This document shows, piece by piece, positions 677 through 31,634 of a stretch of DNA of 37,361 nucleotides. The DNA comes from a virus. Both the position numbers and the translations under genes were made by a program. The stretch's first letter is position 1. Every line of letters starts with the position of its first letter. The stretch spans positions 1 through 37,361 of IMG/VR virus record IMGVR_UViG_3300035670_000653. One strand, written 5' to 3'. The notes beneath the pieces are model-generated. The model made no database searches. It was not told the DNA's origin and saw only the letters and a program-made list of their open reading frames with translations.

Positions 677-2382
677 CCTACGGCGAGATCGCGACGCAGT
701 ACGCGCGCGACATCGTCGACGGCCGCATTCCCGCCTGCAAGTGGCACAAGCTCGCCTGTGCCCGCCATTTGCGCGACCTCGAGCGCATCGGCAGCGCCGG
801 CTTCCCCTATGTTTTCAATCCAGAGCTCACCGACGCCGCCGGCAAGACCTACTTCCCTGGCGAGCGGATCTGCAAGTTCGCCGAGCTCATGCCGCACATC
901 AAGGGCGACTGGGCTGCGCGTGGCCAGCTCATCGTCCTCGAAGCCTGGCAGATCTTCATCCTCGTCAGCATCTTCGCCTGGGTGCATCGCGACACCGGCA
1001 AGCGCCGCTTCCGCGTTGCCGACCTCTACGTCCCGCGCAAGAATGCCAAGAGCACCCTGGCCGCCGTCATCGGCAACTTCATGCTCGCTGTCGACGGCGA
1101 ATTCGGCGCCGAGGTCTACTCCGGCGCCACCTCGCAGGACCAGGCGCTCGAAGTCTTCCGCCCCGCGCTGCTCATGGCCCGCGCCACCCCGCGCTTCATG
1201 CAGACCTACGGCGTCAGCGCCAACGCCAGCAACCTCGCCGTCGTTGAGAAGAACAGCAAATTCGAACCCGTCATCGGCAAGCCGGGCGACGGCGCCAGCC
1301 CCAGCTGCGCCATCGTCGATGAATACCACGAGCACAAGACCCCCGAGCTCTACGAAACAATGCAGACCGGCATGGGCGCGCGCTCACAGCCGCTGATCCT
1401 GGTCATCACCACCGCCGGAAGCGACATCTCCGGCCCCTGCTTCCAGCATCAGCAGGAACTCGAGAAGATCCTCGAGGGAACCATCGACAACGACCAGCGC
1501 TTCGGCATCGTCTTCGGCATCGACGAAGGCGACGACTGGACCAATGAAGACGTCCTGCGCAAGGCCAACCCCAACTATGGCGTCAGCGTCGATGCCGAGT
1601 TCCTCGCCATCCAGCAGCGCGACGCCATTGCCGACCCGCGCAAGCAGAACGTCTTCAAGATCAAGCACCTCAACGTCTGGGTCGCCGCCGCTTCGCCCTG
1701 GCTCAACCTCTACCACCTGCAGCAGGCTGGCGACCCATCGCTCAAGCTCGAAGACTTCCGCGGTCAGGATTGCATCGCCGGCCTCGACCTGGCGAGCAAG
1801 CAGGACATCGCCTCAAATGTCTACCTCTTCGATCGCGAGATCAACGGTGAAAAGCACTACTACGCCATCAGCCGCAACTACGTCCCCGAAGCGGCCGTGC
1901 AGAAACCAGAGAACGCCCACTATCAAGGCTGGGTGATCAGCGGCCACCTGATCCAGACCGACGGCAACATGATCAACATCACGCAGATCGAAGACGATCT
2001 GCTCGAAGCCGCCGAGACCGTTGTCCTGCGTGAGGTCGCCAAGGACCCATGGAACTCAGCCCAGCTCGGCGCCAACCTGCAGGAAGCCGGCTTCGAGGTT
2101 GTCGACATCCCGCAGCAGGTCCGCTACCTCAGCGAACCGATGAAAGAGCTGCAGGCCCTCGTCGACGCCGGTCGCTTCCATCATGACGGCAATCCCGCCT
2201 TCGTCTGGATGCTCTCCAACGTCGAAGTCAAGGAATACCGCAACGAAAACATCTTCCCGCGCAAGCAGCGCGCCGCCAACAAGATCGACGCTGCGGTCGC
2301 GTTGATCGTTGCAATGAGCCGGGCGCTGGTTTCCGCGCCGGGCAACAACACCTACTCCGAGGTCGACCTGGTCATCCTATGA
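661..2382 (+). CDS. Terminase large subunit (packaging ATPase-nuclease)
   Basis: A 573-aa terminase of the Terminase_1 type, which drives DNA translocation into the prohead and cuts the concatemer. The ATPase part shows a Walker A-like VPRKNAKST at about residues 124-132 and a Walker B CAIVDE ending at E221. The RNase H-like nuclease part contains LDLASKQD with D376, and a late acidic site KID at 541-543. Length is normal and no motif is missing. Its stop overlaps the portal start in an ATGA arrangement. Function is firm from motifs and neighbourhood. Confidence 0.95.
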   Translation: MERTLTYGEIATQYARDIVDGRIPACKWHKLACARHLRDLERIGSAGFPYVFNPELTDAAGKTYFPGERICKFAELMPHIKGDWAARGQLIVLEAWQIFILVSIFAWVHRDTGKRRFRVADLYVPRKNAKSTLAAVIGNFMLAVDGEFGAEVYSGATSQDQALEVFRPALLMARATPRFMQTYGVSANASNLAVVEKNSKFEPVIGKPGDGASPSCAIVDEYHEHKTPELYETMQTGMGARSQPLILVITTAGSDISGPCFQHQQELEKILEGTIDNDQRFGIVFGIDEGDDWTNEDVLRKANPNYGVSVDAEFLAIQQRDAIADPRKQNVFKIKHLNVWVAAASPWLNLYHLQQAGDPSLKLEDFRGQDCIAGLDLASKQDIASNVYLFDREINGEKHYYAISRNYVPEAAVQKPENAHYQGWVISGHLIQTDGNMINITQIEDDLLEAAETVVLREVAKDPWNSAQLGANLQEAGFEVVDIPQQVRYLSEPMKELQALVDAGRFHHDGNPAFVWMLSNVEVKEYRNENIFPRKQRAANKIDAAVALIVAMSRALVSAPGNNTYSEVDLVIL

Positions 2383-3602
2383 GCCTCCGACTTCGACTCG
2401 CCCAATGGGCGCTGCGCGGCGTGCATCCGCGCGACCCGGCGCTGGCCGAATGGCTCGGCATGCTCAACATGACGGCCGCCGGTGTCTCGGTGACGGCCGA
2501 GACCGCAATGCGAGTTTCGACGGTCTATGCGTGCATCAGAGTTCTGTCCGAGACCGTTGCCAGCCTGCCGCTCGTCGTCTATCGCCGGAAGCCCGGCGGC
2601 GGGAAAGAGCGCGCAACCGACCACTGGCTCTATTCACTGCTGCATGGTGGACCGAACGGCTGGATGACCAGCTTCGCGTGGCGCGAACAGGGTGTCGCGC
2701 ACCAATGCCTGCGCGGAGTTTCCTACAGCCGCATCATCGGCGATCCGCGCGGCCGGCGTCAGCTCGTGCCGATCCATCCCGACCGGATGCGCGTCAAGCT
2801 GCTCGATACCGGCCGGCTCGCCTATGAGCTGCAGAAACAGAGCGGCGGTACCGAGATCCTGCTCCAGGAAGAAGTTCTGCGCATCCCGCACCTGGTTGTC
2901 GATGGCATCCGCCCGGTGACGCCGATCGAAGCGCAGAAAGAAGCGCTCGGCGCTGCCCTGGCCGCCCAGGACTACAGCGCGCGCTTCTGGGCTAACGATG
3001 CCAAGCCGCGCAGCGGCTGGATCGAGATGCAGGGCGATTTCAAAAGCGGTGGCGACGAAGAGGGCTTCCGCAAAAAATGGCAGCAGTACATGACGGGCGA
3101 GAACCGCCACAAGATCGCCTTTCTGCCGAAGGGAATGACCTATCACGCGCTCTCCATGACCATGGAGGATGCGCAGTTCATCGAGACGCGCAAGCTGCAG
3201 CGCTCGGAAGTCGCGAGCATCTTCCGCGTTCCGCCGCACATGATCGGCGACCTCGAGCGTGCGACCTTCAGCAACGTCGAGCAGCAGTCCATCGACTTCG
3301 TCGTGCACACCATCCGCCCCTGGCTGGTGCGCTGGGAGCAAGAGCTGACGCGCGGCCTGCTTACCGAAGCCGAGCAGGAGAAGTATTTCGTCGAGTTCCT
3401 CGTCGATGGCCTGCTCCGGGGAGATGCCAATGCCCGCGCCAACTACTTCCGCACTGCCGTTCTCACTGGCTGGATGAACCGCAACGAGGTGCGCGAGATC
3501 GAGAACATGAACCGCGAGGAAGGGCTCGATGAATTCCTTGCCCCGCTCAACATGACCCCGGCCGATCTTCTGGCCGATGTATTGAAAGGAAAGACGGCAT
3601 GA
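2379..3602 (+). CDS. Portal protein, HK97 family
   Basis: A 407-aa protein recognisable as a Phage_portal (HK97-type) member: AETAMRVSTVYACIRVLSET near residues 39-58 and the stretch containing RSEVASIFRVPPHMIGDL in the middle are hallmark segments. It forms the dodecameric ring at the capsid vertex through which DNA passes. The start codon overlaps the TerL stop, and its own stop overlaps the protease start (ATGA), giving a tightly coupled TerL-portal-protease unit. The length is usual for the family. Confidence 0.94.
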   Translation: MSLRLRLAQWALRGVHPRDPALAEWLGMLNMTAAGVSVTAETAMRVSTVYACIRVLSETVASLPLVVYRRKPGGGKERATDHWLYSLLHGGPNGWMTSFAWREQGVAHQCLRGVSYSRIIGDPRGRRQLVPIHPDRMRVKLLDTGRLAYELQKQSGGTEILLQEEVLRIPHLVVDGIRPVTPIEAQKEALGAALAAQDYSARFWANDAKPRSGWIEMQGDFKSGGDEEGFRKKWQQYMTGENRHKIAFLPKGMTYHALSMTMEDAQFIETRKLQRSEVASIFRVPPHMIGDLERATFSNVEQQSIDFVVHTIRPWLVRWEQELTRGLLTEAEQEKYFVEFLVDGLLRGDANARANYFRTAVLTGWMNRNEVREIENMNREEGLDEFLAPLNMTPADLLADVLKGKTA

Positions 3603-4195
3603 AAGACCGAGAGATCCGCAGCTTCACCCTCGACGAAATCAAGATCGAGGCGCGCGAAGACGGCAAACGCCTCATCCGTGGCCATGCCGCCGTGTTCAAC
3701 CAGCTCTCCGAGGATCTCGGCGGCTTCCGCGAGCAGATCGCGCCGGGCGCCTTTGCCGAGGCCATCAAGACCGACGACGTGCGCGCGCTGTTCAACCACA
3801 ACGCCGACCTCATCCTTGGTCGCAACCTCGCCGGCACCCTCAAGCTCGCGGAGGACGCACGTGGCCTCGCCATCGAACTCGACCCGCCCGATACGCAAGC
3901 CGGTCGCGACCTGCTCGTCAGTATGGAGCGCGGCGACGTGACACAGATGTCCTTCGGCTTCAGCGTCCGCCCCAACGGCCAGAACTGGGGCAAGGACGAT
4001 ACCGGCCAGGTCGTGCGCACCATCACTCGCGTGCGCCTGTTCGATGTCTCTCCCGTCGTCTACCCGGCCTACCCGCAAACCGACGTCGCAGTTCGCGAGC
4101 TGCGCGACTGGCAAGCCGCCCAGGCGCCGCATGTCGATGTCGCCGGCCGCGCTGCGCTCGACATTCAGCGGCGCCGACTGGAGCTGGCTGCGTAG
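3599..4195 (+). CDS. Prohead maturation protease, HK97 (S78) family
   Basis: A 198-aa protease that trims the capsid N-terminus during head maturation. The opening includes IRGHAAVFN (26-34), and the pattern continues with ALFNHN containing the probable catalytic H67 and GDVTQMSFGF containing the probable nucleophile S118, as in HK97 gp4. It lies between portal and capsid, its standard position. It is followed by a hairpin terminator rather than by the capsid gene directly, so capsid expression can be set separately. Confidence 0.93.
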   Translation: MKDREIRSFTLDEIKIEAREDGKRLIRGHAAVFNQLSEDLGGFREQIAPGAFAEAIKTDDVRALFNHNADLILGRNLAGTLKLAEDARGLAIELDPPDTQAGRDLLVSMERGDVTQMSFGFSVRPNGQNWGKDDTGQVVRTITRVRLFDVSPVVYPAYPQTDVAVRELRDWQAAQAPHVDVAGRAALDIQRRRLELAA

Positions 4196-4318: not shown

Positions 4319-5578
4319 ATGAGCAAGAAACTGAACGACCTGCGCCACCAGCGCAATCAGCTCGTCACCCAGGCGCGCGGCATCCTCGACAAGGCCGATG
4401 CCGAGAAGCGCGGCCTGAATGCCGACGAGCAGAAATCCTACGACGACATCTTCGCCAAGCAGGACGAACTGCGCGGCCAGATCGAGCGCGAAGAGCGCCA
4501 AATCGAGCTTGAGCGCCAGCTGGCGGATAGTCAGATGCGCAACGGCAACGGCGGCGACGACGGCGGCCGCGGAGAGCAGCGCGGCGAAAACGCCGGCCCC
4601 AATGGTCCGAGGGGCACCGAGGAATACCGCGCCGCCTTCGACGCCTTCCTTCGTGGCGGGCGCAACAATCTTAACCCCGACCAGATCCGCGCCCTGTCTG
4701 CCGGCGCCGGCTCCGAGGGTGGCTTCATGATCGCGTCGGAACAGATGGCGTCCGGCATGATTCAGGCCCTCGACGATGTGGTGCTGATCCGCCAGTGGGC
4801 GACCAAGCACTCCATTCCCACGGCGGCTAGCCTGGGCGCCGTCTCGCTCGATTCCGACCCGGCCGATGCCGACTGGACCAGCGAGATCGCGACGGGCAGC
4901 GAAGACAGCACCATGGGCTTCGGCAAGCGCGAGCTGGTCCCGCAGGCGCTGGCCAAGCGCATCAAGGTCAGCAACAAGCTGCTGCGCAAGGTGCCGGCCG
5001 CCGAGGCGCTGGTCATGTCGCGCCTGGCCTACAAGTTCGGCATCTCGGAGGAGAAGGGCTTCCTCACCGGCAACGGCAGCAAGAAGCCGCTCGGCCTCTT
5101 CACCGCCAGCAATGACGGCATCCCGACCACCCGCGACGTGTCCGCGGGCAACGCTGCCACCAGCATCGGCATGGACGGCCTGATCGCCGCCAAGTACAGC
5201 CTCAAGGCGCAGTACCTGCGCAATGCCAAGTGGCTCTTCCATCGCGACGGCGTCAAGCAGATCGCCCAGCTCCGCGCGACGGCCGACGGCCAATACCTGT
5301 GGGAGCCCAGCAAGAAGGCCGGCGAGCCCGACATGCTGCTCGGCCTGCCGATCCACATGTCCGAGTACGTGCCCAACACCTTCACCGCCAGCCAGTACGT
5401 CGGCATGCTCGGCGACTTCAGCTTCTACTGGATCGTCGACGCGCTCGACATGCAGATCCAGCGCCTGGCCGAGCTCTACGCCGAGACCGACCAGACCGGC
5501 TTCATCGGCCGCAAGGAAACCGACGGCCAGCCGGTTCTCGGCGAAGCCTTCGCCCGCGTCAAGCTCGCCGCCTCCTGA
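4319..5578 (+). CDS. Major capsid protein, HK97 fold
   Basis: A 419-aa capsid protein with an N-terminal charged coiled coil (about 1-75), then a Gly/Asn-rich linker (about 76-100) and the HK97-fold body. The first ~100 residues match the delta/scaffolding domain removed by the preceding protease. Body signatures include SAGAGSEGGFMIASEQM and, near the end, a conserved stretch describing the E-loop/P-domain. A good Shine-Dalgarno (AAGGAG) precedes ATG 4319. Position after portal and protease fixes the function. Confidence 0.94.
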   Translation: MSKKLNDLRHQRNQLVTQARGILDKADAEKRGLNADEQKSYDDIFAKQDELRGQIEREERQIELERQLADSQMRNGNGGDDGGRGEQRGENAGPNGPRGTEEYRAAFDAFLRGGRNNLNPDQIRALSAGAGSEGGFMIASEQMASGMIQALDDVVLIRQWATKHSIPTAASLGAVSLDSDPADADWTSEIATGSEDSTMGFGKRELVPQALAKRIKVSNKLLRKVPAAEALVMSRLAYKFGISEEKGFLTGNGSKKPLGLFTASNDGIPTTRDVSAGNAATSIGMDGLIAAKYSLKAQYLRNAKWLFHRDGVKQIAQLRATADGQYLWEPSKKAGEPDMLLGLPIHMSEYVPNTFTASQYVGMLGDFSFYWIVDALDMQIQRLAELYAETDQTGFIGRKETDGQPVLGEAFARVKLAAS

Positions 5579-5655
5579 TCGAGGCGGTACTCGGTAGCAC
5601 CCCGGCGGCGCATTCGGTCGCCGTCGGGCAATCCATCACATAGGAGCCCATACAA

Positions 5656-6030
5656 ATGGACACCAAGCAGACTCAAGATGTGCAGAACTCCCTCGCCCCG
5701 GCTGCCCGTACGGCCAGCGCCAACGGTAGCGGCGTCGATCTCGCCAACTTCGGAAGCGCCACCGTCGCCTTCAGCGTTGGCACCATCACCGACGGCACCC
5801 ACACCCCGAAGGTGCAGGAATCCGACGACAACTCCACCTACACCGACGTCGCCGCCGCCGATCTCATCGGCACGCTCGCCGCCCTGGCGACCGACACCAA
5901 CCAGCGCGTCGGCTACCGCGGCACCAAGCGCTACATCCGCGCCGTCTCCACGGTCGCCGGCGCCACCACCGGCGGCGTCTATGCCGCCGTGGTGATCCGC
6001 GGCGATGCCCGCAAGCAGCCCGTCGCCTGA
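5656..6030 (+). CDS. Small head-region protein of unknown function
   Basis: A 124-aa protein with AGGAG upstream of ATG 5656. It is rich in small and beta-forming residues (Ala, Thr, Gly, Val) and has no cysteine, signal peptide or membrane segment. Placement right after the capsid gene is where many HK97-like phages encode a capsid decoration or head-stabilising protein, so this is the leading guess, from context only. No catalytic motif is visible. The regular Ser/Thr/Asp pattern (for example QESDDNSTYTDVAAA) suggests a beta-sandwich. Confidence 0.7.
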   Translation: MDTKQTQDVQNSLAPAARTASANGSGVDLANFGSATVAFSVGTITDGTHTPKVQESDDNSTYTDVAAADLIGTLAALATDTNQRVGYRGTKRYIRAVSTVAGATTGGVYAAVVIRGDARKQPVA

Positions 6031-6042
6031 TAGGGGCCAGCC

Positions 6043-6306
6043 ATGAAGATCCGCATGAACTCTCTCATGGCCGGCCCGTCCGGCTCCCGCCATCCTGGCC
6101 AGATCTGCACCGTCGGCCAGGACATCGAACTCGCCGAAGCCAAGCAGCTCGTGGCGGGCGGCTATGCCGACGAAATGGCCGAAGAAGCCACGGCCGCTGC
6201 CGCCAAACCCGTCAAGGGCAAGCGGGCCGTCGAAGCCGCCGTCCCGCCGGCGTCGACTTCTGGCGACGGCGCCGCCGCTGATTCCGACACCACCGCTGGC
6301 AACTGA
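6043..6306 (+). CDS. Small conserved head-region protein
   Basis: An 87-aa protein with a folded first half (MKIRMNSLMAGPSGSRHPGQ, then EAKQLVAGGYADEM) and a low-complexity Ala/Pro/Ser tail from about residue 47. The first half resembles short phage proteins with a GQxx-V-AkxLVxxGyA pattern often found between capsid and connector genes. Its role is unknown; it may accompany the head-tail interface. It starts 12 bp after the previous stop, with GGGGCC rather than a strong Shine-Dalgarno upstream. Confidence 0.7.
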   Translation: MKIRMNSLMAGPSGSRHPGQICTVGQDIELAEAKQLVAGGYADEMAEEATAAAAKPVKGKRAVEAAVPPASTSGDGAAADSDTTAGN

Positions 6307-6311
6307 TACAA

Positions 6312-6881
6312 ATGGGCCTCACCCTCACCGCCGCGCCCGGCACCGAGCCGATCGCGCTCGCCGAAGCCAAGCTCCACTGCAAGGTCGACGTCACCGACGA
6401 CGACGCGCTGATCACCGCGCTCATCGTCGCCGCGCGCCGTCTCGCCGAGCAGCAGACCGGGCGCGCGCTGGTGACGCAGCAGTGGAAGCAGACGCTCGAC
6501 GCTTTCCCCGTCGCCGCGATCGCGCTCGACCTGCCGCCGCTGCAAACGGTGGAGTCGCTCAAGTACTACGACACCGACGGCGCGCAGCAGACGCTCGCCG
6601 CCGGCACCGACTACACCGTGCACACGTCTACGCCGCTCGGCCTCGTCGCGCCAGCCTACGGCACCACCTGGCCGGCCACCCGCGACATGCTCGAAGCCGT
6701 CGAGATCGCCTTCACCGCCGGCTATGGCGCCGCCGCCGCCGTGCCGCAGGAGATCAAGCAGTGGATGCTGCTGCAGATCGGCCACTGGTACGAGAACCGC
6801 GAAGCCAGTGGCGACCGCCGCAATCCGCTGCCCTACGTCGACGCGTTGCTCGACCCCTACCGCGTGCTGAGGTTCGGCTGA
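6312..6881 (+). CDS. Head-tail connector, phiE125 gp8 / gp6-like
   Basis: A 189-aa adaptor resembling the phiE125 gp8 family and the wider HK97 gp6-like connectors, which form the ring below the portal. Visible family features are the N-terminal pattern EPIALAEAKLHCKVD..DDALITALIVAARR, the motif LVTQQWKQTLDAFP, and the late segment PQEIKQWMLLQIGHWYENRE. Its stop codon shares a base with the next ATG (TGATG). Order and size agree with the module. Confidence 0.9.
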   Translation: MGLTLTAAPGTEPIALAEAKLHCKVDVTDDDALITALIVAARRLAEQQTGRALVTQQWKQTLDAFPVAAIALDLPPLQTVESLKYYDTDGAQQTLAAGTDYTVHTSTPLGLVAPAYGTTWPATRDMLEAVEIAFTAGYGAAAAVPQEIKQWMLLQIGHWYENREASGDRRNPLPYVDALLDPYRVLRFG

Positions 6882-7198
6882 TGGCTGCCGGTCGGCTCAA
6901 TTGCCGCATCACCCTCCGCCAGCGCGTTACCGGCCAGGACGCCATCGGCCAGCCGGTGCAGACCTGGGCCGACGTCGCCACCGTCTGGGCCGACATCCGC
7001 CATCCGGGCGGATTGGAAACCGTCAAGGCCGATGCCGACGTCTCCGTTGTCAAGGCCAGCATTCGCATTCGCCACCGCACTGGCATCGATGCCGGCATGC
7101 AAGTGGTGCACGGCGCGGATACCTACGACATCAAGGCCGTGCTGCCGGATGCCGCCAGCAAGCGGCATCTCGACCTCGTCTGCGAGCTGGCGAAATGA
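6881..7198 (+). CDS. Head closure / head-tail adaptor protein
   Basis: A 105-aa protein of the SPP1 gp16-like head-closure type: RLNCRITLRQRV near the start, then TWADVATVWADIRHP and the C-terminal pattern DTYDIKAVLPD, the usual small-barrel layout. It seals the connector after packaging and provides the tail docking surface. Start at ATG 6881 is chosen because it overlaps the preceding stop; longer upstream readings in this frame are shadows of the connector gene. Confidence 0.87.
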   Translation: MAAGRLNCRITLRQRVTGQDAIGQPVQTWADVATVWADIRHPGGLETVKADADVSVVKASIRIRHRTGIDAGMQVVHGADTYDIKAVLPDAASKRHLDLVCELAK

Positions 7199-7659
7199 GC
7201 GTCACCATCCACGCCGACATGGCCGGCCTCGACCGCATGATCGACATGCTGGCCGCCGACGTCGAAGAGGCCGCCCGCCCGGCGGCCTTTGCCGGTGCCG
7301 ACGTCATTTACCGCGAAGTCAAGCGCAACGTGGCCGCCCTTGGCCGCGTGAGCGGAAACCTCGACCGCTCGATCTACCGCGTATACTCGAAGGACAACAG
7401 CGGCCGCGGTCGCGCCACCTATCACATCAGCTGGAATGCGCGCAAGGCACCGCATGGCCACCTGGTCGAGTACGGCCACTTTCAGCGCTATCGCGTTTTC
7501 ATCGGCAAGGATGGCCACTGGTACACCGACAAGTCGAATCCGCTTGCCCAACCGCGCCGCGTCGCCGCCGCACCATTCGTGCGTCCCGCCCAGGCCAAAT
7601 TTCCCGAAGCGGTCGCCGCCGCCGAGGCCGAGTTGTTTAAAAGGATCGGCGCCCTGTGA
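7195..7659 (+). CDS. HK97 gp10-like tail completion protein
   Basis: A 154-aa protein with the HK97 gp10 family signature in its centre, NARKAPHGHLVEYGH, followed by VAAAPFVRPA near the end. Members act in head-tail joining or tail completion. ATG 7195 overlaps the stop of the head-closure gene (ATGA), and the C-terminus overlaps the next gene. Assignment rests on the signature and gene order. Confidence 0.88.
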   Translation: MSVTIHADMAGLDRMIDMLAADVEEAARPAAFAGADVIYREVKRNVAALGRVSGNLDRSIYRVYSKDNSGRGRATYHISWNARKAPHGHLVEYGHFQRYRVFIGKDGHWYTDKSNPLAQPRRVAAAPFVRPAQAKFPEAVAAAEAELFKRIGAL

Positions 7660-8009
7660 CCGTCGAATTCGACCTCTTCACCCTGTTGCGCACGTTCGCC
7701 GACCACGTCTTTCCCGACGTCGCGCCGCACGAGACGCCGCGCCCCTACGTCACCTACCAGCAGATCGGCGGCGCCGCACTCAGTTATGTGGATGACGTCG
7801 TTCCCGCGGCGAAAAACGGTTACTTCCAGATCAATGTTTGGTCGAACACGCGTCAAGCCACTGCTGCTCTGGCCCTGCAGATCGAGGCAGCCATGATCGC
7901 CGCCACCGTATTCCAGGCGCGCCCCATGGGCGCGCCTGTCGCAGAACACGAGCCGGACCTGGCCATCTACGGCAGCCGGCAGGATTTCAGCATCTGGTCC
8001 GCCCGATAG
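7656..8009 (+). CDS. Tail completion protein, DUF3168 type
   Basis: A 117-aa protein using a GTG start (7656) that overlaps the preceding TGA. The pattern PRPYVTYQQIGGA followed by GYFQINVWSNTRQATAALALQI is typical of DUF3168/gp17-like tail terminator proteins, which cap the tail tube at the head-proximal end. It closes the connector block; two tandem terminators follow it directly. Confidence 0.87.
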   Translation: MTVEFDLFTLLRTFADHVFPDVAPHETPRPYVTYQQIGGAALSYVDDVVPAAKNGYFQINVWSNTRQATAALALQIEAAMIAATVFQARPMGAPVAEHEPDLAIYGSRQDFSIWSAR

Positions 8010-8032
8010 CCCAGGGCGCCTGAAGAAAACAA

Positions 8033-8054
8033 GCCGCCTCCGGGCGGTTTTTTT
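8033..8054 (+). terminator. Intrinsic terminator, first of tandem pair
   Basis: CCGCC (8034-8038), TCCG loop and GGCGG (8043-8047) are followed by seven T residues. It lies just after the DUF3168 gene. Confidence 0.75.
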
Positions 8055-8077
8055 GTGCCCGCGAGGGCCACTCAACC

Positions 8078-8100
8078 AACCCGCTTCGGCGGGTTTTTTT
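8078..8100 (+). terminator. Intrinsic terminator, second of tandem pair
   Basis: AACCCGC, a TTCG tetraloop (8085-8088) and GCGGGTT, with a seven-T run at 8094-8100. This is a canonical strong terminator placed 17 bp before the tail-tube start. Confidence 0.8.
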
Positions 8101-8116
8101 ATGAAAGGCCCACACC

Positions 8117-8761
8117 ATGGCTCAAGTACCCACCGGCACCCTGTTCTCCGTCGCCACCACCTTCGGCAACGCCATCACCGTCACCGCCGTCACCAACGCC
8201 ACCGAGGCCGTCTGCTCGGCGACCGCGCACGGCCTCAGCACCGGCGACGTCGTCGAAGTCACCAGCGGCTGGGGGCGGCTCAACAAGCGCACCTTCGAAG
8301 TCGAAGTCGTCGACGCCAACAGCTTCAAGCTCAAGAAGGCCGACACCTCCAGCACCTCTCACTACCCTGCCGGCGCCGGCATCGGCAGCGTGCGCGAGGT
8401 CACCGCCTGGACCCAGCTGTCGAAGGTCATGAACCCGCAGACGCAGGGCGGCGACCCCAAGACCGTCAACTACAAGTTCCTCGAGTCCGACGTCGAATAC
8501 TCGATCAACGACGGCTTCACCGCCACCAGCCTGACGCTCGAGATGGACGACGACGACACCACGGCCGGCTACGCCGCGCTGCGCACCCTCACCGACGTGC
8601 AGTCCGACACGGTGCTCAAGGTGCTGGCGCGCAGCGGCTCGCGCGTCTACATGCCCTGCACCGTGGCCATGAACGACGTCCCGCGCATGCAGGACGGCCA
8701 GATCAACCGCATCAGCGTCGCGTTCAACGGCAGCAACCGCCACACCCGCTACGCCGCCTGA
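8117..8761 (+). CDS. Major tail tube protein
   Basis: A 214-aa protein typical of siphophage tail-tube subunits: MAQVPTGTLFSVATTFGNAI at the start, an Ig-like insertion rich in Thr/Val around residues 20-75, and the C-terminal RMQDGQINRISVAFNGSNRH. Subunits stack into the hollow tube around the tape measure. GAAAGG lies 12 bp before ATG 8117. The gene is isolated between two pairs of strong terminators, which suggests independently set, high-level expression. Confidence 0.88.
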   Translation: MAQVPTGTLFSVATTFGNAITVTAVTNATEAVCSATAHGLSTGDVVEVTSGWGRLNKRTFEVEVVDANSFKLKKADTSSTSHYPAGAGIGSVREVTAWTQLSKVMNPQTQGGDPKTVNYKFLESDVEYSINDGFTATSLTLEMDDDDTTAGYAALRTLTDVQSDTVLKVLARSGSRVYMPCTVAMNDVPRMQDGQINRISVAFNGSNRHTRYAA

Positions 8762-8781
8762 TTCCCCGGGGCGCCATGAGG

Positions 8782-8801
8782 CCCGCTTCGGCGGGTCTTT
8801 T
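8782..8801 (+). terminator. Intrinsic terminator after tail tube, first
   Basis: CCCGC-TTCG-GCGGG stem-loop followed by TCTTTT. It is almost the same hairpin as the one at 8078-8100, so the tail-tube gene is bracketed by near-identical elements. Confidence 0.7.
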
Positions 8802-8803
8802 CT

Positions 8804-8832
8804 CCCGCCGGGCAGGCCTGGCGGGCTTTTTT
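8804..8832 (+). terminator. Intrinsic terminator after tail tube, second
   Basis: CCCGCC (8804-8809) pairs with GGCGGG (8820-8825) across a 10-nt loop, followed by C and six T residues. Confidence 0.75.
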
Positions 8833-8857
8833 AAAAACACGAAAGGCATAACACATC

Positions 8858-9253
8858 ATGGCAAATATCAAACTGGGCAGCCGCCCGAAAACCTTCAAGC
8901 CCTTCAAAGTCAAGTTCGACCTGCCCGAGGGCGGCGAGGGCGCCATCGAGGTCACCTACAAATACCGCAGCAAGACCGAGTTCGGCCGCCACCTCGACGA
9001 CATGATGGGGCAGGCCAAATCGAAGGAAGCCGACGAACCGCGTTCCACCGAGAACTTCTCCATGGAGGCCTTCTTCAAGGCCAACACCGCGGCCAGTGCC
9101 GACCACTTGATGGGCTCCATCGACGCCTGGGATCTCGACGAGCCGCTGACGCGCGACGCCTTGCTCCAGCTCGGCGACGAATGCCCGGCAGCCGTGGCGG
9201 CGCTGATTGCCTGCTACGCCAACGCCTGCCGGGACGGCCGCCTGGGAAACTGA
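8858..9253 (+). CDS. Tail assembly chaperone (G-like)
   Basis: A 131-aa protein in the position of lambda gpG, between tail tube and tape measure. It is expected to bind the tape measure and recruit tube subunits. It contains KTFKPFKVKFDLPEGGEGAI and a central helical region. Its last sense codons CTG GGA AAC precede TGA and include a GGGAAAC slippery heptamer in the correct frame, so a share of ribosomes should extend it into the next reading frame to give a ~229-aa fusion. Confidence 0.88.
   Translation: MANIKLGSRPKTFKPFKVKFDLPEGGEGAIEVTYKYRSKTEFGRHLDDMMGQAKSKEADEPRSTENFSMEAFFKANTAASADHLMGSIDAWDLDEPLTRDALLQLGDECPAAVAALIACYANACRDGRLGN
9244..9250 (+). promoter_or_regulatory. Programmed -1 frameshift site GGGAAAC
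   Basis: The heptamer is in the X XXY YYZ register of the upstream frame (G GGA AAC, then TGA). Slipping back one base continues as CTG ATC GAG in the downstream frame. Lambda G/GT uses the closely related GGGAAAG. Confidence 0.85.
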
Positions 9254-9546
9254 TCGAGGCCGCGCGGGCGCTCTACGAGCCGCCGCCCAAGCCCGGCGGC
9301 CTGTTCGCGCCCGAAGACTTCGAAGACATCGAAGTTTGGCCGGAGAGCTGGCCGGCCGTCGATCTATTCATGCAGTTGCGCACCCAGTGGCGCGTCGGCT
9401 TCAACGGCGCCACCGGGCTCGATTACGAAGTGCTGTTTGCCCTGCTCGATCGCCGCGGTTATGCCGGCGACGAGTGGGAGCGGATGTTCGAAGACATCCG
9501 CCTGATGGAGCGCGAGGCGCTGGCCGCCATGCGTGACGACAACTGA
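9250..9546 (+). CDS. Tail assembly chaperone frameshift extension (GT-like)
   Basis: About 98 codons in the -1 frame, entered through the GGGAAAC site. The frame has no convincing start of its own at the junction. The peptide begins LIEAARALYEPPPKPGGLFA and includes WPESWPAVDLFMQLRTQWRVG and LDYEVLFALLDRRG, resembling DUF1799-like T-domain proteins of siphophages. In the fusion the T part would bind tube subunits. The stop at 9544-9546 starts a perfect hairpin before the tape measure gene. Confidence 0.82.
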   Translation: MIEAARALYEPPPKPGGLFAPEDFEDIEVWPESWPAVDLFMQLRTQWRVGFNGATGLDYEVLFALLDRRGYAGDEWERMFEDIRLMEREALAAMRDDN

Positions 9547-26448: not shown

Positions 26449-26714
26449 AAAGCCCCCTCGTAGCGGGCGCGCAGCGCCTGGTAAATCTGCCGGCCGATCT
26501 CGTCGGTCACTGGCACCGCGTTGATCGTCAGATCACCTTCGATGGTTGCTCCAACCGATGTCAGAAACAGGTCTAGCTCGATGGTCGGCGCTTCATGGCC
26601 GTACTTGCGAATGGTGATAGCGGTGGCCATGTGGTCCATTCGCTGGCCATCGATCTCGATTGCCGGTGTTTCGCCAAGACTGTTGCGGCGCAGGTTCAGC
26701 GTAGCCTTGCTCAT
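26445..26714 (-). CDS. Uncharacterised small protein, beta-rich
   Basis: An 89-aa protein overlapping ParB and the HD gene by 4 bp each. It reads [40 protein letters not shown] and then a helix ([20 protein letters not shown]). The alternation of charged and aliphatic residues suggests a small beta-sheet domain. No family is recognised. Confidence 0.72.
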
Positions 26715-28774
26715 GCTGCGGCCTCCGCGGCTTCCTTGGACTCCTCGACGCCGGGTAGCGTCATGGTTTGGGTATCGTCGGCCGGTGGCGGGAAGGGCCA
26801 TGCCGTCGCAGCCGACTTCGCTGCTGCCGGTTTCTTGGCGATCTCGCGCACCTCCAGCCCGCCGCCGCGCTTGAACAGTTCCTTGACCCAGGCGGGTTCC
26901 TTGCCCCTGCCCGTCCAGGTCAACGTTGGGTTGCTCGGGTGGCAGTAGATCAGGCCCTCGGCCAGTTCCGGCTTCGACGGTTTTGCCGCCGCAGGCGGCT
27001 CGTTCGCCGGCGAAGCCGGCGCTGGATCGGTCTTTGCCTTTGCCTTCTTCGCCGCCGGCGTCTTCGGCTTTTCCGGGGTCTCCGGCGCAGCCGGCTTCGT
27101 GCCCTTCACCTGCGCTTGCGCAGCTGGGGAAGGGGTAGAAGCCGCTTTTGCTCCGCCACGCGCGGCTGGTTTCGGCTTGGTCTTCACGCGCATTTCGGCG
27201 ATTACCGCGGACTTGATGGCGGCGGTGTCGATCTCGAGCGACTGGGCCATGGCCAGCAGCTTCTCGGCATCGCGGTCGGCGTAGCTGGGGACCGTGACGT
27301 CGCCAACGATGGCGCATTCGATCAGCAGGCGGCAGAGGTCGCCGCGCTCCATGGCCGGGATGCGCTGCTTGAGCTCGTGGATCAGCGCATGGTCATCCTG
27401 CTTCTCGTGGGTGGGGCCGACCCACAGGCGGGCGAGGCGCTTCTGATTGTCGAAGCCGGTGCGGTAGAACAGCGCCTCGGCGACGAGGCGGTATTCGTTG
27501 AGCTGCAGGTCGGCGTCGGCGGCGCTGAAATCGACGGTCAGCTTGCTGCGCACCTGCTCGAAGACGCGCTGCCGGAAGCTGGCCTCCTGTTTGCGCTTGC
27601 GCTCGGCCTCTTTTTCCTTCGTGCTCTTGCCGCCGCGCGTGAGGCCTTCGACCTTGTCGGCCAGCCCCTTGGCTTCGAGCTTCTCCTGGATGGTGGACTT
27701 GGCCATGGCTTCGATGACCTTGCCCTTGTGGTGCGGGTCGATGATGATGGCCTCCGCCTTGGCGTCGCTGTCGAGCGCCTTGCGCAGCGTCTGGTACTTG
27801 CCGCCGACATAGACTTCCTTGTCCAGGCTCACCAGGCCGCCGACGAGGTCGCTGTGGCTGTACGGCTTGACCTTCTTGGCCTCGGCGCCGTCGATGACCT
27901 TGACGCCTTCCTTCTTCGCCGCTTCCTTCTGGCGCTTGACGTGGGCCGCCGCCTTAGCCTCGTAACACGGCGGGTCGATGCACATGTCTGCACTCTTCAC
28001 GTCGGCGAAGAGGTCGTCGGCGTTGCCGGTGCGCTTGGGGCAGGCCAGGCAGCTGCCGGCGCTGGCCACTAGCTCGTCGTCGGCGCGCGAGAAGTTGGCC
28101 TGGTCGAGCCGCAGCATGAATTCGCGCTGCACCATGTCGCTCGCCTGGCGGTAGGACATCGGCTCGGAATCGCTGTAGTAGGTGCCGCTGGCGATCTTCT
28201 TCGCCGCCGCGACCTGCAGCTCCGGCACCGGGATGCGCGCCACCAGCAGTGCGGTGATGGCGTCGAGCTTGCCCTCGGCGAAGAACTTGAGCGCCGCCGG
28301 GCAGAGTTCGAGCAGCTTGAGCTTGGCATAGACGTAGCCCTTGCTCTTGCCGATCTTGACGGCGATGCTCTCGGCGGTGTGGCCGTAGTCATTCATCAGG
28401 TGGCGGTAGCCCTTGGCCTCCTCGATGGCGGTGAGGTCCTTGCGCTTGAGGTTCTCGATCAGTTGCAGCTCGAGCGCCTGCTCGTCGCCGATCTCGCGCC
28501 AGAAGAAGGGAATGTCGGCGAGTCCGGCATGCCGGGCGCCACGCCAGCGGCCCTCGCCGATGACGATCTCGTAGAGCACGCCATCCGGCGCCGGGCCGCG
28601 CGCGGCCGGCCAGGGGCGTGCGGTGATCGGCTGCACGACGTCGTACAGTTTGATGTTTTCTCCGAGGTCGGCGATGTGTTCGGCCGTGTGCGTGCGGTTG
28701 GTCAGCGACGGCGCGAAGTGGCCGATCGGCGCGCGGGCAACGACGGTGCCGGCGGGTGGCTGCGGGGCGTTCAT
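26711..28774 (-). CDS. ParB-like protein, PRTRC style, H-NS-like tail
   Basis: A 687-aa protein. The ParB/Srx-type N-terminal domain has IGEGRWRGAR (72-81) and QLIENLKRKDL (104-114), followed by a KorB-like helix-turn-helix region near 132-155. A cysteine cluster follows (CLACPKRTG at 242-250, then CIDPPC at 265-270), probably zinc binding and typical of PRTRC-system ParB proteins. Residues about 615-629, NPTLTWTGRGKEPAWV, resemble the H-NS C-terminal DNA-binding loop. AGGAGA precedes ATG 28774, which overlaps the stop of the broken retroelement gene. It may act in replication, partition or DNA modulation. Confidence 0.85.
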   Translation of the reverse strand: MNAPQPPAGTVVARAPIGHFAPSLTNRTHTAEHIADLGENIKLYDVVQPITARPWPAARGPAPDGVLYEIVIGEGRWRGARHAGLADIPFFWREIGDEQALELQLIENLKRKDLTAIEEAKGYRHLMNDYGHTAESIAVKIGKSKGYVYAKLKLLELCPAALKFFAEGKLDAITALLVARIPVPELQVAAAKKIASGTYYSDSEPMSYRQASDMVQREFMLRLDQANFSRADDELVASAGSCLACPKRTGNADDLFADVKSADMCIDPPCYEAKAAAHVKRQKEAAKKEGVKVIDGAEAKKVKPYSHSDLVGGLVSLDKEVYVGGKYQTLRKALDSDAKAEAIIIDPHHKGKVIEAMAKSTIQEKLEAKGLADKVEGLTRGGKSTKEKEAERKRKQEASFRQRVFEQVRSKLTVDFSAADADLQLNEYRLVAEALFYRTGFDNQKRLARLWVGPTHEKQDDHALIHELKQRIPAMERGDLCRLLIECAIVGDVTVPSYADRDAEKLLAMAQSLEIDTAAIKSAVIAEMRVKTKPKPAARGGAKAASTPSPAAQAQVKGTKPAAPETPEKPKTPAAKKAKAKTDPAPASPANEPPAAAKPSKPELAEGLIYCHPSNPTLTWTGRGKEPAWVKELFKRGGGLEVREIAKKPAAAKSAATAWPFPPPADDTQTMTLPGVEESKEAAEAAA

Positions 28775-29165
28775 GGATGATCTCCTGTGGTGGCGTGGTG
28801 ACGGGTGGAACCGGTGTGGGATAGCGCGGCCCGATAGGAGCGGATGGCTTCGCTCCGGTCGCGGCCATGGGTTTCGTGCTCGCGCTGGCGGCGGTGGTAG
28901 CGGCTCCGCAGGTACTGCCCGGCCGAGACGTGGCCGGGCCAGACGACGTAGCCGAGGAAGGGGATGCCAGCGCGTAGGCGGTGCGGTCGTAGCCGTGCAG
29001 GAACTTGCCGGCCTGCACCAGCACCAGGTGGCCGGGGTGCTGTTCCTCGAGCTTGGCCGCGATCGCGGCAACCGGGTCGGCCTGGCCAAGGCCAAGCTCG
29101 ATGCCGCGGTAGCTGCGAATCGCCAGCTGCTCCTGCTCGTCGGTGGTGGGGAATTGTGTGCTCAT
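28771..29165 (-). pseudogene. Remnant DGR genes: MutS-like accessory fused to RT tail
   Basis: From ATG 29165 one frame gives about 66 residues (QLAIRSYRGIELGLGQADPV, then HPGHLVLVQAGKFLHGYDRT) with the MutS-domain-I-like pattern of DGR 'MSL' accessory proteins. At about 28967-28985 the coherent reading shifts frame and becomes RLRAGIPFLGYVVWPGHVSA, later DRSEAIRSYRAALSHTGS. This resembles the C-terminal tail of DGR and retron-type reverse transcriptases (an FLGxxVxP segment, then a SWxaHxxHxxS-like end). Its stop overlaps the ParB ATG as ATGA, which supports a real gene end. The RT palm with its YxDD box, the rest of MSL and any template repeat are missing, so an internal deletion is the simplest reading. 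Assignment is from memory of family motifs. Confidence 0.6.
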
Positions 29166-29176
29166 GGCGAGGGTGG

Positions 29177-29198
29177 GGTCACGGCTGGCGCCGCGACC
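29177..29198 (-). promoter_or_regulatory. Hairpin downstream of variable repeat 1
   Basis: In coding orientation GGTCGCGGC, loop GCCA, GCCGTGACC: a 9-bp stem with one G-T pair, beginning exactly 12 nt after the target stop. The same stem occurs at the same distance after the second target. DGRs such as BPP-1 need a hairpin just after the variable repeat for efficient homing. There is no T run, so a terminator is less likely. Confidence 0.6.
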
Positions 29199-29210: not shown

Positions 29211-29351
29211 TCAGTGACCGATGGGTTGGGTGCAGCGGAAGCCGACGTAGCCGCCGCGGTAGCCGGGCCAGTCGTTGCTGAGACGGAACGCGCCGGCAAC
29301 GGCCTCCGAGCGCCAGTAGCCGCCCCGGACGAGCGCATCGCCGGACCAATC
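29211..29351 (-). repeat. Variable repeat 1 (DGR VR)
   Basis: This 141-bp 3' segment matches 30906-31046 without gaps, with 14 substitutions. All fall on codon positions 1 or 2. The last 36 bp before the final codon (through GFRCTQPIG) are invariant, as expected of an initiation-of-homing region. Confidence 0.82.
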
Positions 29352-29903
29352 GGCACCGGTGCGCGGGGTCCATCCCTGGCCCTTGTCTTTGTCGGGGAAG
29401 GGGATCACCAGGCTGGGTGAATCCTTGGCGAAGGGCTTGGCGACCAGGCCCTGCTCATCACCCTGCACGTCGTCGGACACCCAGGTGAAGACGTTGCCGG
29501 CGACGTCGAAGATTCGCTGGCCGTCGGGCAGGGCGAACCAGCGGCGCTCGTCGGGGTCGCTCGATACGAAGTCGCCGGCCTGTGCCGATCTAACAGTCCA
29601 TTTGCGCAGGCCCTGATAGAGCTTGCCTTTGCCGATTGCGCCGCCGGTCCAGTTCTCGGGTTGCAGCGCCACCTGGTAGGCCAGCGCCAGTGCCTGGGAT
29701 TCGGTGATCAGCGCGTAGCCGGCGGCCGCGCAGGCGGCCTTGGCTTCCGCGAAGTTGATGCGCACCCAGGGCGTGCCCTCGGCGGTGATGGCGGCACGGC
29801 CGCCGGTGCCCTGAGTGCAGACGTATTGACCGACGCGGAAGGCGGGCACGATGCGGCCGCCGGGCAGGGTGGTTTCAGGGACGGTGACGAACAGGTCTTT
29901 CAT
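29211..29903 (-). CDS. DGR target protein 1, FGE-like C-type lectin fold
   Basis: A 230-aa protein of the formylglycine-generating-enzyme/sulfatase-modifying fold, used by many DGR variable proteins as a ligand-binding scaffold. It reads FRVGQYVCTQG near the N-terminus, WVRINFAEAKAACAAAGYAL in the centre, DVAGNVFTWV, and a C-terminal RGGYW...GYVGFRCTQPIG typical of the fold. Variable residues relative to its paralogue are D189, V192, Y196, R198, E200, V202, R207, S209, N210, G214 and H230. ATG 29903 overlaps the upstream stop (ATGA) with GGAG before it. No signal peptide is seen, so it acts in the cytoplasm or is carried by the virion; its ligand is unknown. Confidence 0.85.
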   Translation of the reverse strand: MKDLFVTVPETTLPGGRIVPAFRVGQYVCTQGTGGRAAITAEGTPWVRINFAEAKAACAAAGYALITESQALALAYQVALQPENWTGGAIGKGKLYQGLRKWTVRSAQAGDFVSSDPDERRWFALPDGQRIFDVAGNVFTWVSDDVQGDEQGLVAKPFAKDSPSLVIPFPDKDKGQGWTPRTGADWSGDALVRGGYWRSEAVAGAFRLSNDWPGYRGGYVGFRCTQPIGH

Positions 29904-30181
29904 TCGGGAATCTCCATGGTGGCGGCTGAGGCAATGGCGGGAGCGCGGCCGTAGCCGGCGTTTTCGATGATTTCGCAGTGCAGCCGGCCATCCTCGATCC
30001 TGGCGACGGCTTTCTCGTCGCGGCTGATGGGCAGGCATACCTCGCTGACCCATTTGCGATAGGCCGCGTTGGCGGCGAATGTGCGGTCCCGATAGTCGAG
30101 CAGGCCCTGCAGCAGCAAATAGGCGAAGACCAGTGCGGTGGCGGTGAGGAAACGGCACAGCAGCGGCGTCATGCGGCGCAT
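29900..30181 (-). CDS. Small membrane-anchored protein
   Basis: A 93-aa protein with one N-terminal transmembrane segment (LLCRFLTATALVFAYLLLQG) and a soluble remainder with two further cysteines (EVCLP and LHCEI). Start 30181 is chosen because GGAGGT lies six bases upstream; an internal ATG at 30172 overlaps the preceding stop and is an alternative. It ends inside the start of DGR target 1, so the two are coupled. Function unknown. Confidence 0.68.
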   Translation of the reverse strand: MRRMTPLLCRFLTATALVFAYLLLQGLLDYRDRTFAANAAYRKWVSEVCLPISRDEKAVARIEDGRLHCEIIENAGYGRAPAIASAATMEIPE

Positions 30182-30366
30182 TGGGGCACCTCCGGCGCCA
30201 GCGGCGCGCTCTTGTGGGTGACGCCCATGCGGTGCCAGCCCGGCGGCACGATGGGCGAGACCACCAGGCGCTTGCCGTCGGTGATCAGATGCATGCGGTG
30301 CTCGATGGCGATCTGCTCCAGCTCGCACATGAGCACGTCGGGCGGCGGGATGAGGGCGACGAGCAT
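30169..30366 (-). CDS. Uncharacterised 65-aa protein
   Basis: Starts at ATG 30366 sharing one base with the upstream stop (TGATG) and overlaps the next gene. It reads MLVALIPPPDVLMCELEQIA, then GKRLVVSPIVPPGWHRMGV. Short, compact and probably folded with a beta hairpin; no family is recognised. One of four small genes lying between the two DGR targets. Confidence 0.65.
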   Translation of the reverse strand: MLVALIPPPDVLMCELEQIAIEHRMHLITDGKRLVVSPIVPPGWHRMGVTHKSAPLAPEVPQCAA

Positions 30367-30653
30367 CACGCTATCCTCATCTCGCGTCCGTCTTCGACGA
30401 CGAACAGATTGACGTCGCTCAGGCGGTACTGGCCGCCGGGCCCGCCCTGAACGACATAGGCCTCAGCGTGTCCGGCTTCAACGAAGACCTCGAACAGTGC
30501 GCCGCGCTCGCCCTGGCCGTAATACTTGCTGGAGCGCTTGATCTTCGCGTAGAGCTGCTGGCCACTGCGCACTCTGACTGCCTTGTCGCGCTCGTATCTC
30601 TCGACCTTGTCGCGACCTTCCTGCGTCGTCATGTCAACAATCTCATAGCTCAT
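30366..30653 (-). CDS. Uncharacterised 95-aa protein
   Basis: ATG 30653 overlaps the upstream stop (ATGA). The sequence has a charged helix (TTQEGRDKVERYERDKAVRV) followed by a beta-rich part (KYYGQGERGALFEVFVEAGH, QYRLSDVNLFVV). It is not recognised. Basic residues in the first half could contact nucleic acid, which is speculation. Confidence 0.68.
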   Translation of the reverse strand: MSYEIVDMTTQEGRDKVERYERDKAVRVRSGQQLYAKIKRSSKYYGQGERGALFEVFVEAGHAEAYVVQGGPGGQYRLSDVNLFVVEDGREMRIA

Positions 30654-30859
30654 GGCCGCGCTCCCATCTTGACGTCGGCGCAGCGCGAGACCTTGCGGAA
30701 CAGCGTCTCGGCGCTGGCGCATTCGCCCAGGCAGACGTTGCGGTCGGGCAATTTGCGGTAGATCAGGAAGCGCCCGCCCTTGTCGACCACGAACATGCCG
30801 TGGTCCTTGGCGATCTGGCAGGCCTGATGGAACTGCTGCTGTGGGGTGTGACGGCGCAT
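30650..30859 (-). CDS. Uncharacterised 69-aa protein
   Basis: ATG 30859 follows GGGAGGAGG (a strong Shine-Dalgarno), placed just after the hairpin that follows DGR target 2. It reads QQQFHQACQIAKDHGMFVVD, KGGRFLIYRKLPDRNVCLGE, and a C-terminal helix. The middle resembles short phage proteins with a helix and two strands; function unknown. First of the small ORFs between the two targets. Confidence 0.68.
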   Translation of the reverse strand: MRRHTPQQQFHQACQIAKDHGMFVVDKGGRFLIYRKLPDRNVCLGECASAETLFRKVSRCADVKMGARP

Positions 30860-30871
30860 GGCGTCCTCCTC

Positions 30872-30895
30872 CCGGTCACGGCAAGCCGCGACCGG
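30872..30895 (-). promoter_or_regulatory. Hairpin downstream of variable repeat 2
   Basis: In coding orientation CCGGTCGCGGC, TT, GCCGTGACCGG. The 9-bp core is the same as after variable repeat 1, with a different loop and a longer outer stem. The core starts 12 nt after the stop of target 2, the same spacing as copy 1. Confidence 0.6.
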
Positions 30896-30905
30896 AGACC
30901 AGGGA

Positions 30906-31046
30906 TCAGAGACCGATGGGTTGGGTGCAGCGGAAGCCGACGTAGCCGCCGCGGTAGTCGGGCCAGTCGCCGTTGAGACAGAACGCGCCGGCACCGGCCA
31001 CCGAGTACCAGAGGCCGCCCCGGATGAGCGCACCGCCGGACCAATC
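30906..31046 (-). repeat. Variable repeat 2 (DGR VR)
   Basis: Second copy of the 141-bp repeat. Codon pairs relative to copy 1 include GAT/GGT, GTC/ATC, TAC/CTC, CGC/TAC, GAG/GTG, GTT/GGT, CGT/TGT, AGC/AAC, AAC/GGC, GGC/GAC and CAC/CTC. Every difference can descend from an A in a common template. Confidence 0.82.
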
Positions 31047-31634
31047 CCACGTTTCGTAGTCACCCATGCCCTTGGTTCGGCTGGGGAACGGTGGTGTGGT
31101 GATGGAGGGCGAGTCCTCGGCGAACGGTTGGGCGATCAGGCCCGCCTCGTCGCCCTGGACGTTGTCGAACACCCACTGGTAGATGTTGCCGTTCAGGTCG
31201 CAGATCCGCTCGCCGTTGCTGAGCGTTAGCCAGCGCTGCTCGTCCGGGTCTTCCGGCTGATAGATACCGGGCTGGGCGGAATCGACGGTGTTCTGGCGCA
31301 GGCCCTGGGCGAGCCGACCCTTACCGACGATGCCGGTATTCCAGTTGCACGCCTGCTGCGAAACGTCCCAGGCGATGGCCAGCCATTGCAGCTCGGTGAT
31401 CAGTGCGTAGCCGGCGGCGATGCAGGCGGCCTTGGCTTCTTCGAAGTTGATGCGCACCCAGGGTGCGCCCTCGGCGGTGACGGCGGCCTTGCCGTCGGCG
31501 CCCTGCGTGCAGACGTATTGACCGACGCGGAACGACGGCACAACGGTGCCGTTGGGCAGGGTGACTTGGGGGGCGGTGATGAAGAGGTTGGTGGTGCTGG
31601 GGGTGGTTTCTGCGGCGACTGCTGGTGCGTTCAT
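30906..31634 (-). CDS. DGR target protein 2, FGE-like C-type lectin fold
   Basis: A 242-aa paralogue of target 1, with 12 more residues, most of them an N-terminal extension. Shared blocks are FRVGQYVCTQG, WVRINFEEAKAACIAAGYAL, DLNGNIYQWV and the C-terminal GYVGFRCTQPIG. Variable positions corresponding to target 1 are G201, I204, L208, Y210, V212, G214, C219, N221, G222, D226 and L242. Outside the repeat the two genes differ at all codon positions, including silent ones (Ala GCG/GCA, Thr ACT/ACG). It is the first gene after the leftward promoter, so it should be the most strongly transcribed of the operon. Confidence 0.86.
   Translation of the reverse strand: MNAPAVAAETTPSTTNLFITAPQVTLPNGTVVPSFRVGQYVCTQGADGKAAVTAEGAPWVRINFEEAKAACIAAGYALITELQWLAIAWDVSQQACNWNTGIVGKGRLAQGLRQNTVDSAQPGIYQPEDPDEQRWLTLSNGERICDLNGNIYQWVFDNVQGDEAGLIAQPFAEDSPSITTPPFPSRTKGMGDYETWDWSGGALIRGGLWYSVAGAGAFCLNGDWPDYRGGYVGFRCTQPIGL

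Follow-up and report, generated by a model that had tools for sequence, protein, structure and literature searches.

A phage locus with two variable repeats and their homing signals appears to be the remains of a DGR whose core has been deleted

The DGR mechanism is known. In BPP-1 (mtd, avd, TR, brt) the genes follow the order target–Avd–TR–RT, the variable repeat (VR) lies at the 3′ end of a C-lectin-type target gene, change is specific to adenine and an IMH is present. A hairpin just after the VR is needed for efficient BPP-1 retrohoming and is common in phage DGRs (PMC3240598). Isolates of Treponema denticola are described in which the target genes are present and the core is absent (PMC4891356). 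A further cassette, from uncultivated betaproteobacterial phages and prophages, was found here at loci L003-L008 and L021-L071, of which L047 (IMGVR_UViG_3300014208_000360) is the best match.

The DNA analysed (the window, meaning the whole stretch of 37,361 bases) resembles BPP-1 in having VRs at the 3′ ends of C-lectin-type targets, A-specific change, an IMH and, immediately past each VR, a GC-rich hairpin whose stem measures about 8-9 bp, and its relatives keep the BPP-1 gene order. It differs in that the targets lie among early leftward genes and not in the tail module, the Avd of the relatives bears an extra N-terminal part of about 170 residues, the hairpin loops are not strictly GRNA, and the window itself is without TR, RT and most of Avd. 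VR-bearing targets left in a genome without RT and TR recall Treponema denticola, but the targets there are bacterial lipoproteins whereas those of the window are phage early genes, and the window shows the deletion scar itself with remnants of both genes. To the betaproteobacterial cassette the likeness extends to the target family, the hairpin, the TR and the synteny; the core is kept there and lost in the window.

The 3′ ends of the two target genes (29211-29351 and 30906-31046, both on the minus strand) align without gaps and are identical at 127 of 141 bases. Their 14 differences fall 5, 9 and 0 times at codon positions 1, 2 and 3; on this pairing the initial annotation was borne out by realignment. 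In the upstream bodies of the same genes, which have 63% amino-acid identity, the differences number 54, 39 and 61 at the three positions. The codon-position spread of ends and bodies differs (Fisher P = 0.002), and under the body rate the chance of finding none of 14 changes at position 3 is 0.0009. The gene ends are therefore both closer to each other than the bodies and differently diverged. One difference, 29215/30910, affects the last codon (His/Leu) and falls past the end of the homology to the TR, which leaves 13 of the 14 inside the VR. The paired ends are real, but the TR-homologous stretch is about 113-121 bp and not the 141 bp first given for the repeat.

The closest template for the window is the TR of L047. 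VR1 (29227-29347, minus strand) is homologous over 121 bp to L047 positions 2672-2791 and, in a 113-bp core, is changed at 0 of 89 non-A and 15 of 24 A positions; for VR2 (30922-31042, minus strand, also 121 bp) the figures are 1 of 89 and 16 of 24. This template belongs to a relative at about 20% DNA divergence and may differ from the window lineage's own; the genes around it have only about 70-80% DNA identity to the window. The match at 89/89 and 88/89 non-adenine positions supports the proposal that the two ends are DGR variable repeats. That every differing pair would have A in the template holds for 12 of the 13 pairs inside the VR when L047 is taken as reference; the pair at 29318/31013 (coding T/C) corresponds to a T in the L047 template, as it does in 49 of the 54 templates, and 29215/30910 falls outside the TR. 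The exception at 29318/31013 is either an ordinary substitution or a site that was A in the window lineage's lost template. Similarly, a template codon AAC had been deduced from three codon pairs and agrees with CGC/TAC and AAC/GGC but not with TAC/CTC, where the L047 template reads TAC and the first base is T in 49 of 54 templates. An excess of non-synonymous change could, alone, reflect selection. A rival account with no DGR involved would be ordinary divergence under positive selection, or plain gene conversion between the two paralogues. We give this explanation next to no credence, as template adenines of L047 lie under 12 of the 13 in-repeat differences, the relatives own RT, TR and Avd, and the chance of so many differences hitting positions where at least one of six templates has A is 3e-7.

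Relatives of the targets occur in viral contigs and in mostly betaproteobacterial genomes, and relatives of the Avd-like protein in viral contigs. About 50 loci have a common cassette of 1-3 target genes, a 281-aa Avd-like gene after the last target, a TR and an RT. RT scored above the Pfam cut-off in 5 of the first 8 contigs. The initial annotation had named the lack of an A-rich template in close relatives as an outcome that would count against its reading; such a template, beside an RT gene, is present in many related phages and prophages, and its reading withstood this check. Among 99 same-locus VR–TR pairs of the cassette family, 1589 of 2518 template A positions are changed (63%) against 22 of 8666 non-A positions (0.25%). 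A single-protein search of the genome collection gave no match and an alignment-based search of it gave 20 loci. DNA and protein searches of isolated phages returned no match, and the wider cassette (FGE-type early-region targets, Avd with an extra N-terminal domain) is unmatched in about 50,700 sequenced phage records.

In these relatives the Avd-like part proper covers residues ~170-280 (PHROG 3206/PF22296). An alignment of the L047 protein (L047 1803-2648) with 21 relatives delimits the additional N-terminal part of about 170 aa; within it, a similarity to MutS domain I at residues ~38-118 shows in 10 of the 22 members, at a level below the cut-off (best E 0.014). The structure model of the Avd-like protein was of too low quality for interpretation. 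A MutS-like accessory is known from DGRs. At L008 8294-10553 a 1.19 kb tandem duplication (98.5%) spans Avd and TR. Of its template copies the first is flanked by TR-type sequence at the 5′ side and by VR-type sequence at the 3′ side, a pattern that TR–VR recombination would give. At L073 4989-5418 the Avd gene is followed, at the contig end, by an inverted piece of the same gene, probably a chimeric assembly.

Both VRs of the window read CGCTGCACC at their 3′ ends, where the templates in the alignments read CGCTGACCC; an IMH is expected to differ between VR and TR in this way. A 9-bp hairpin directly follows the stop codon of each target, with hairpin or cruciform elements at 29177-29198 after VR1 and at 30874-30893 after VR2 (both minus strand). 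In an alignment of 17 sequences 96.1% of cells are paired and three pairs carry double changes. The covariation is 0.228 compared with 0.105 for shuffled alignments, and sliding the partner by 1-3 columns lowers the pairing to 27-58%. The target-side features of a DGR, namely a VR changed almost only at the adenines of a TR (here a relative's), an IMH and a hairpin, are all found in the window.

The targets themselves are of FGE/C-lectin type. Target gene 1 (29211-29903, minus strand) encodes 230 aa, its body having 71% amino-acid identity to the L047 target, and target gene 2 (30906-31634, minus strand) encodes 242 aa. The FGE-sulfatase domain PF03781 scores above cut-off in both proteins (E 2.8e-5 for the longer ORF of target gene 1, 2.8e-6 for target gene 2), and profiles match the solved FGEs 6muj and 2q17 with E 0.004-0.005; the FGE-like fold assigned earlier holds by sequence for both. 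The structure model (mean pLDDT 55, mostly 24-42 in the VR region) is too poor to place the variable residues, which the initial annotation had put on the ligand face. When this weak model is compared with the PDB, EgtB, FGE and C-lectins rank first, but with E values of at least 0.098. In many phage DGRs the target is a tail protein (PMC8144416). Those of the window do not look like tail proteins; they lie among leftward early genes (ParB-like, nucleotide phosphatase, SSB, DHH phosphoesterase and integrase), distant from the tail module at 8-19 kb, and a reading by eye of their N-termini gave no apparent signal peptide. The likeliest reading, held with low confidence, is that the targets are binding proteins produced inside the cell during infection or lysogeny, and that their variable repeats may serve ligand binding. 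A role as a defence protein was considered and rejected, PADLOC having given no match.

On the core side, PF00078 had no RT match in the 37,361-base record. An A-blind scan of the window found no TR or third copy of the repeat, the next best place having 41 of 94 non-A mismatches against 1 and 2 for the VRs. The first ~66 of 281 Avd codons remain and the Avd-like part (residues ~170-280) is gone. None of the DGR core features (TR, DGR-type RT, accessory protein) is present within the record, with about 1.2 kb of the genome unseen. This figure comes from mapping the window's end and start, which fall at about 7,862 and 9,043-9,160 on L110 and at 8,176 and 9,334 on L086 and so place the window about 1.2 kb short of a full circle. 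The same interval in L110 holds other small genes (sigma-like and HNH-like by eye). A core inside the gap was rejected, since Avd, TR and RT need about 2 kb. Judged by target-side features that are present and core features that are not, the locus is the remains of a DGR with its core deleted and not a working DGR.

The initial annotation had taken the DGR to be live and its template to lie somewhere else, and had missed a scar at the native site, where template and RT appear to have been deleted. Here, downstream of VR1, an Avd-like remnant (28966-29165, minus strand; the first ~66 of 281 codons, 91% amino-acid identity to L047 Avd, no stops) meets an RT remnant (28798-28974, minus strand; the last ~57 codons, free of stops and with 80% amino-acid identity to the C-terminal end of the L047 RT). 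The microhomology at the junction (28966-28974, minus strand) does not exceed 9 bp; the window reads CGCGCTGGC where the L047 RT has CGCGCCGGT. Window positions 29891-28966 correspond to L047 1077-2002 and positions 28974-28811 to L047 4048-4211; Avd codons 1-66 are joined, with frames differing, to L047-RT codons 271-328, and L047 bases 2003-4047 (about 2.05 kb), comprising the greater part of Avd, the whole TR and codons 1-270 of the RT, are absent. Past the scar a gene with ParB and H-NS domains (26711-28774, minus strand; PF02195, PF17762, PF00816) serves as a synteny marker, matching L047 5078-6654 with 70% DNA identity; the interval between RT and ParB is about 0.8 kb longer in L047. A 258-aa ORF at 28389-29165 was rejected as a gene, because its first ~66 codons alone match and are followed by out-of-frame RT and ParB sequence. 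The Avd remnant differs from L047 at 23 bases (4/4/15 by codon position) and the RT remnant at 37 (7/5/25), which puts 15/23 and 25/37 of the differences at third positions. This bias and the lack of stops suggest that most of the divergence arose while the genes worked. With the two VRs also showing no silent drift apart, the loss of the core seems to be recent on the time scale of the divergence from L047.

The record is a single contig assembled from a metagenome; the population may also hold intact genomes, and the scar might be an assembly artefact or a minority deletion haplotype of a phage that normally has an intact DGR. The exact junction was not found in other IMG/VR records, and at least one other locus of the family, L073, looks chimeric as described above. 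An ordinary assembly-graph join would, however, need a longer shared stretch than the 9 bp at most found at the junction, the order of the pieces is syntenic with L047, and a second, different junction occurs in L028, so that we regard an artefact or minority haplotype as very unlikely.

L028, a prophage in the Rhodocyclaceae MAG G010, lacks bases 5504-9255 of the related intact L077 in the same MAG; at its junction the gene after the VR gene is joined to the last ~22 RT codons, with about 12 bp of microhomology. The two L028 VRs have 2 of 92 non-A mismatches to the L077 template, the same two as in the VRs of L077 itself, and could for that reason have been served in trans or have had a common recent past with them. 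Less certain cases are L023, with Avd and TR present and RT cut to the last ~26 codons, L186 and L159, with an RT tail, and L185 and L206, with the first ~38 Avd codons only; the last two are identical over that ~38-codon stretch and are taken as one event. The core has thus been lost independently at least once more in the family, in L028, and probably in further cases; the loci were chosen for holding remnants, so that no rate is claimed. In L023 (10545-11227) and L186 (4098-5280), where RT is otherwise missing, a small gene (FGRL...CQCDCG) stands directly upstream of the RT tail; it is homing-endonuclease-like by eye and has no Pfam match. The C-terminal RT tail is the surviving piece in most core-less loci found (window 28798-28974, L028, L023, L159 and L186), which may reflect chance, the selection of loci by their tails, or a function of the sequence.

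The pairing of core-less L028 and intact L077 in one MAG, with L028 VRs that fit the L077 template as well as the VRs of L077 do (2/92), also bears on whether the window's targets are still diversified in trans by the TR and RT of the host or of a co-resident prophage of the same family. The IMH and the hairpins are intact in the window, and targets remote from their core are known in Treponema denticola (PMC4891356). Recent loss explains the silent identity of VR1 and VR2 equally well, however; we consider continued action in trans unlikely.

We consider it very probable that the gene ends are DGR variable repeats, that the core was then lost by a microhomology deletion of about 2.05 kb, and that the repeats are now most likely frozen. 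The A-specific divergence from a relative's template and the hairpins can be read directly from the DNA, and so can the scar and the lack of TR and RT in the record. Past activity would have consisted of an RT copying a template RNA with errors at its adenines, after which the cDNA would have taken the place of the 3′ ends of the two paralogous FGE/C-lectin-type genes by way of the conserved 3′ end (IMH) and the hairpin past each stop codon. The deletion in this lineage would have come later. Joining the Avd-like gene to the RT gene at a microhomology of no more than 9 bp, it would have taken away the TR and the greater part of both genes. The repeats would since have been inactive, unless they are acted on in trans by a related DGR present in the same cell.

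Within the literature searched, the scar, its recurrence in one phage family and the occurrence of core-less and intact prophages together appear to be new. DGR catalogues are usually RT-based, and loci with targets but without RT therefore escape them. The way in which a DGR dies can be seen from a clean scar that retains remnants of both genes, which also provides material for asking whether loss of the mutator fixes a useful variant, and the core-less and intact prophages in one MAG (G010) make diversification in trans directly testable. It is conceivable, although we hold the idea only tentatively, that this family of temperate betaproteobacterial phages has lost the core repeatedly while keeping targets and homing signals, and that the prophages lacking a core either settle on one selected variant or persist as satellites, their targets being rewritten in trans by an intact prophage that shares the cell.
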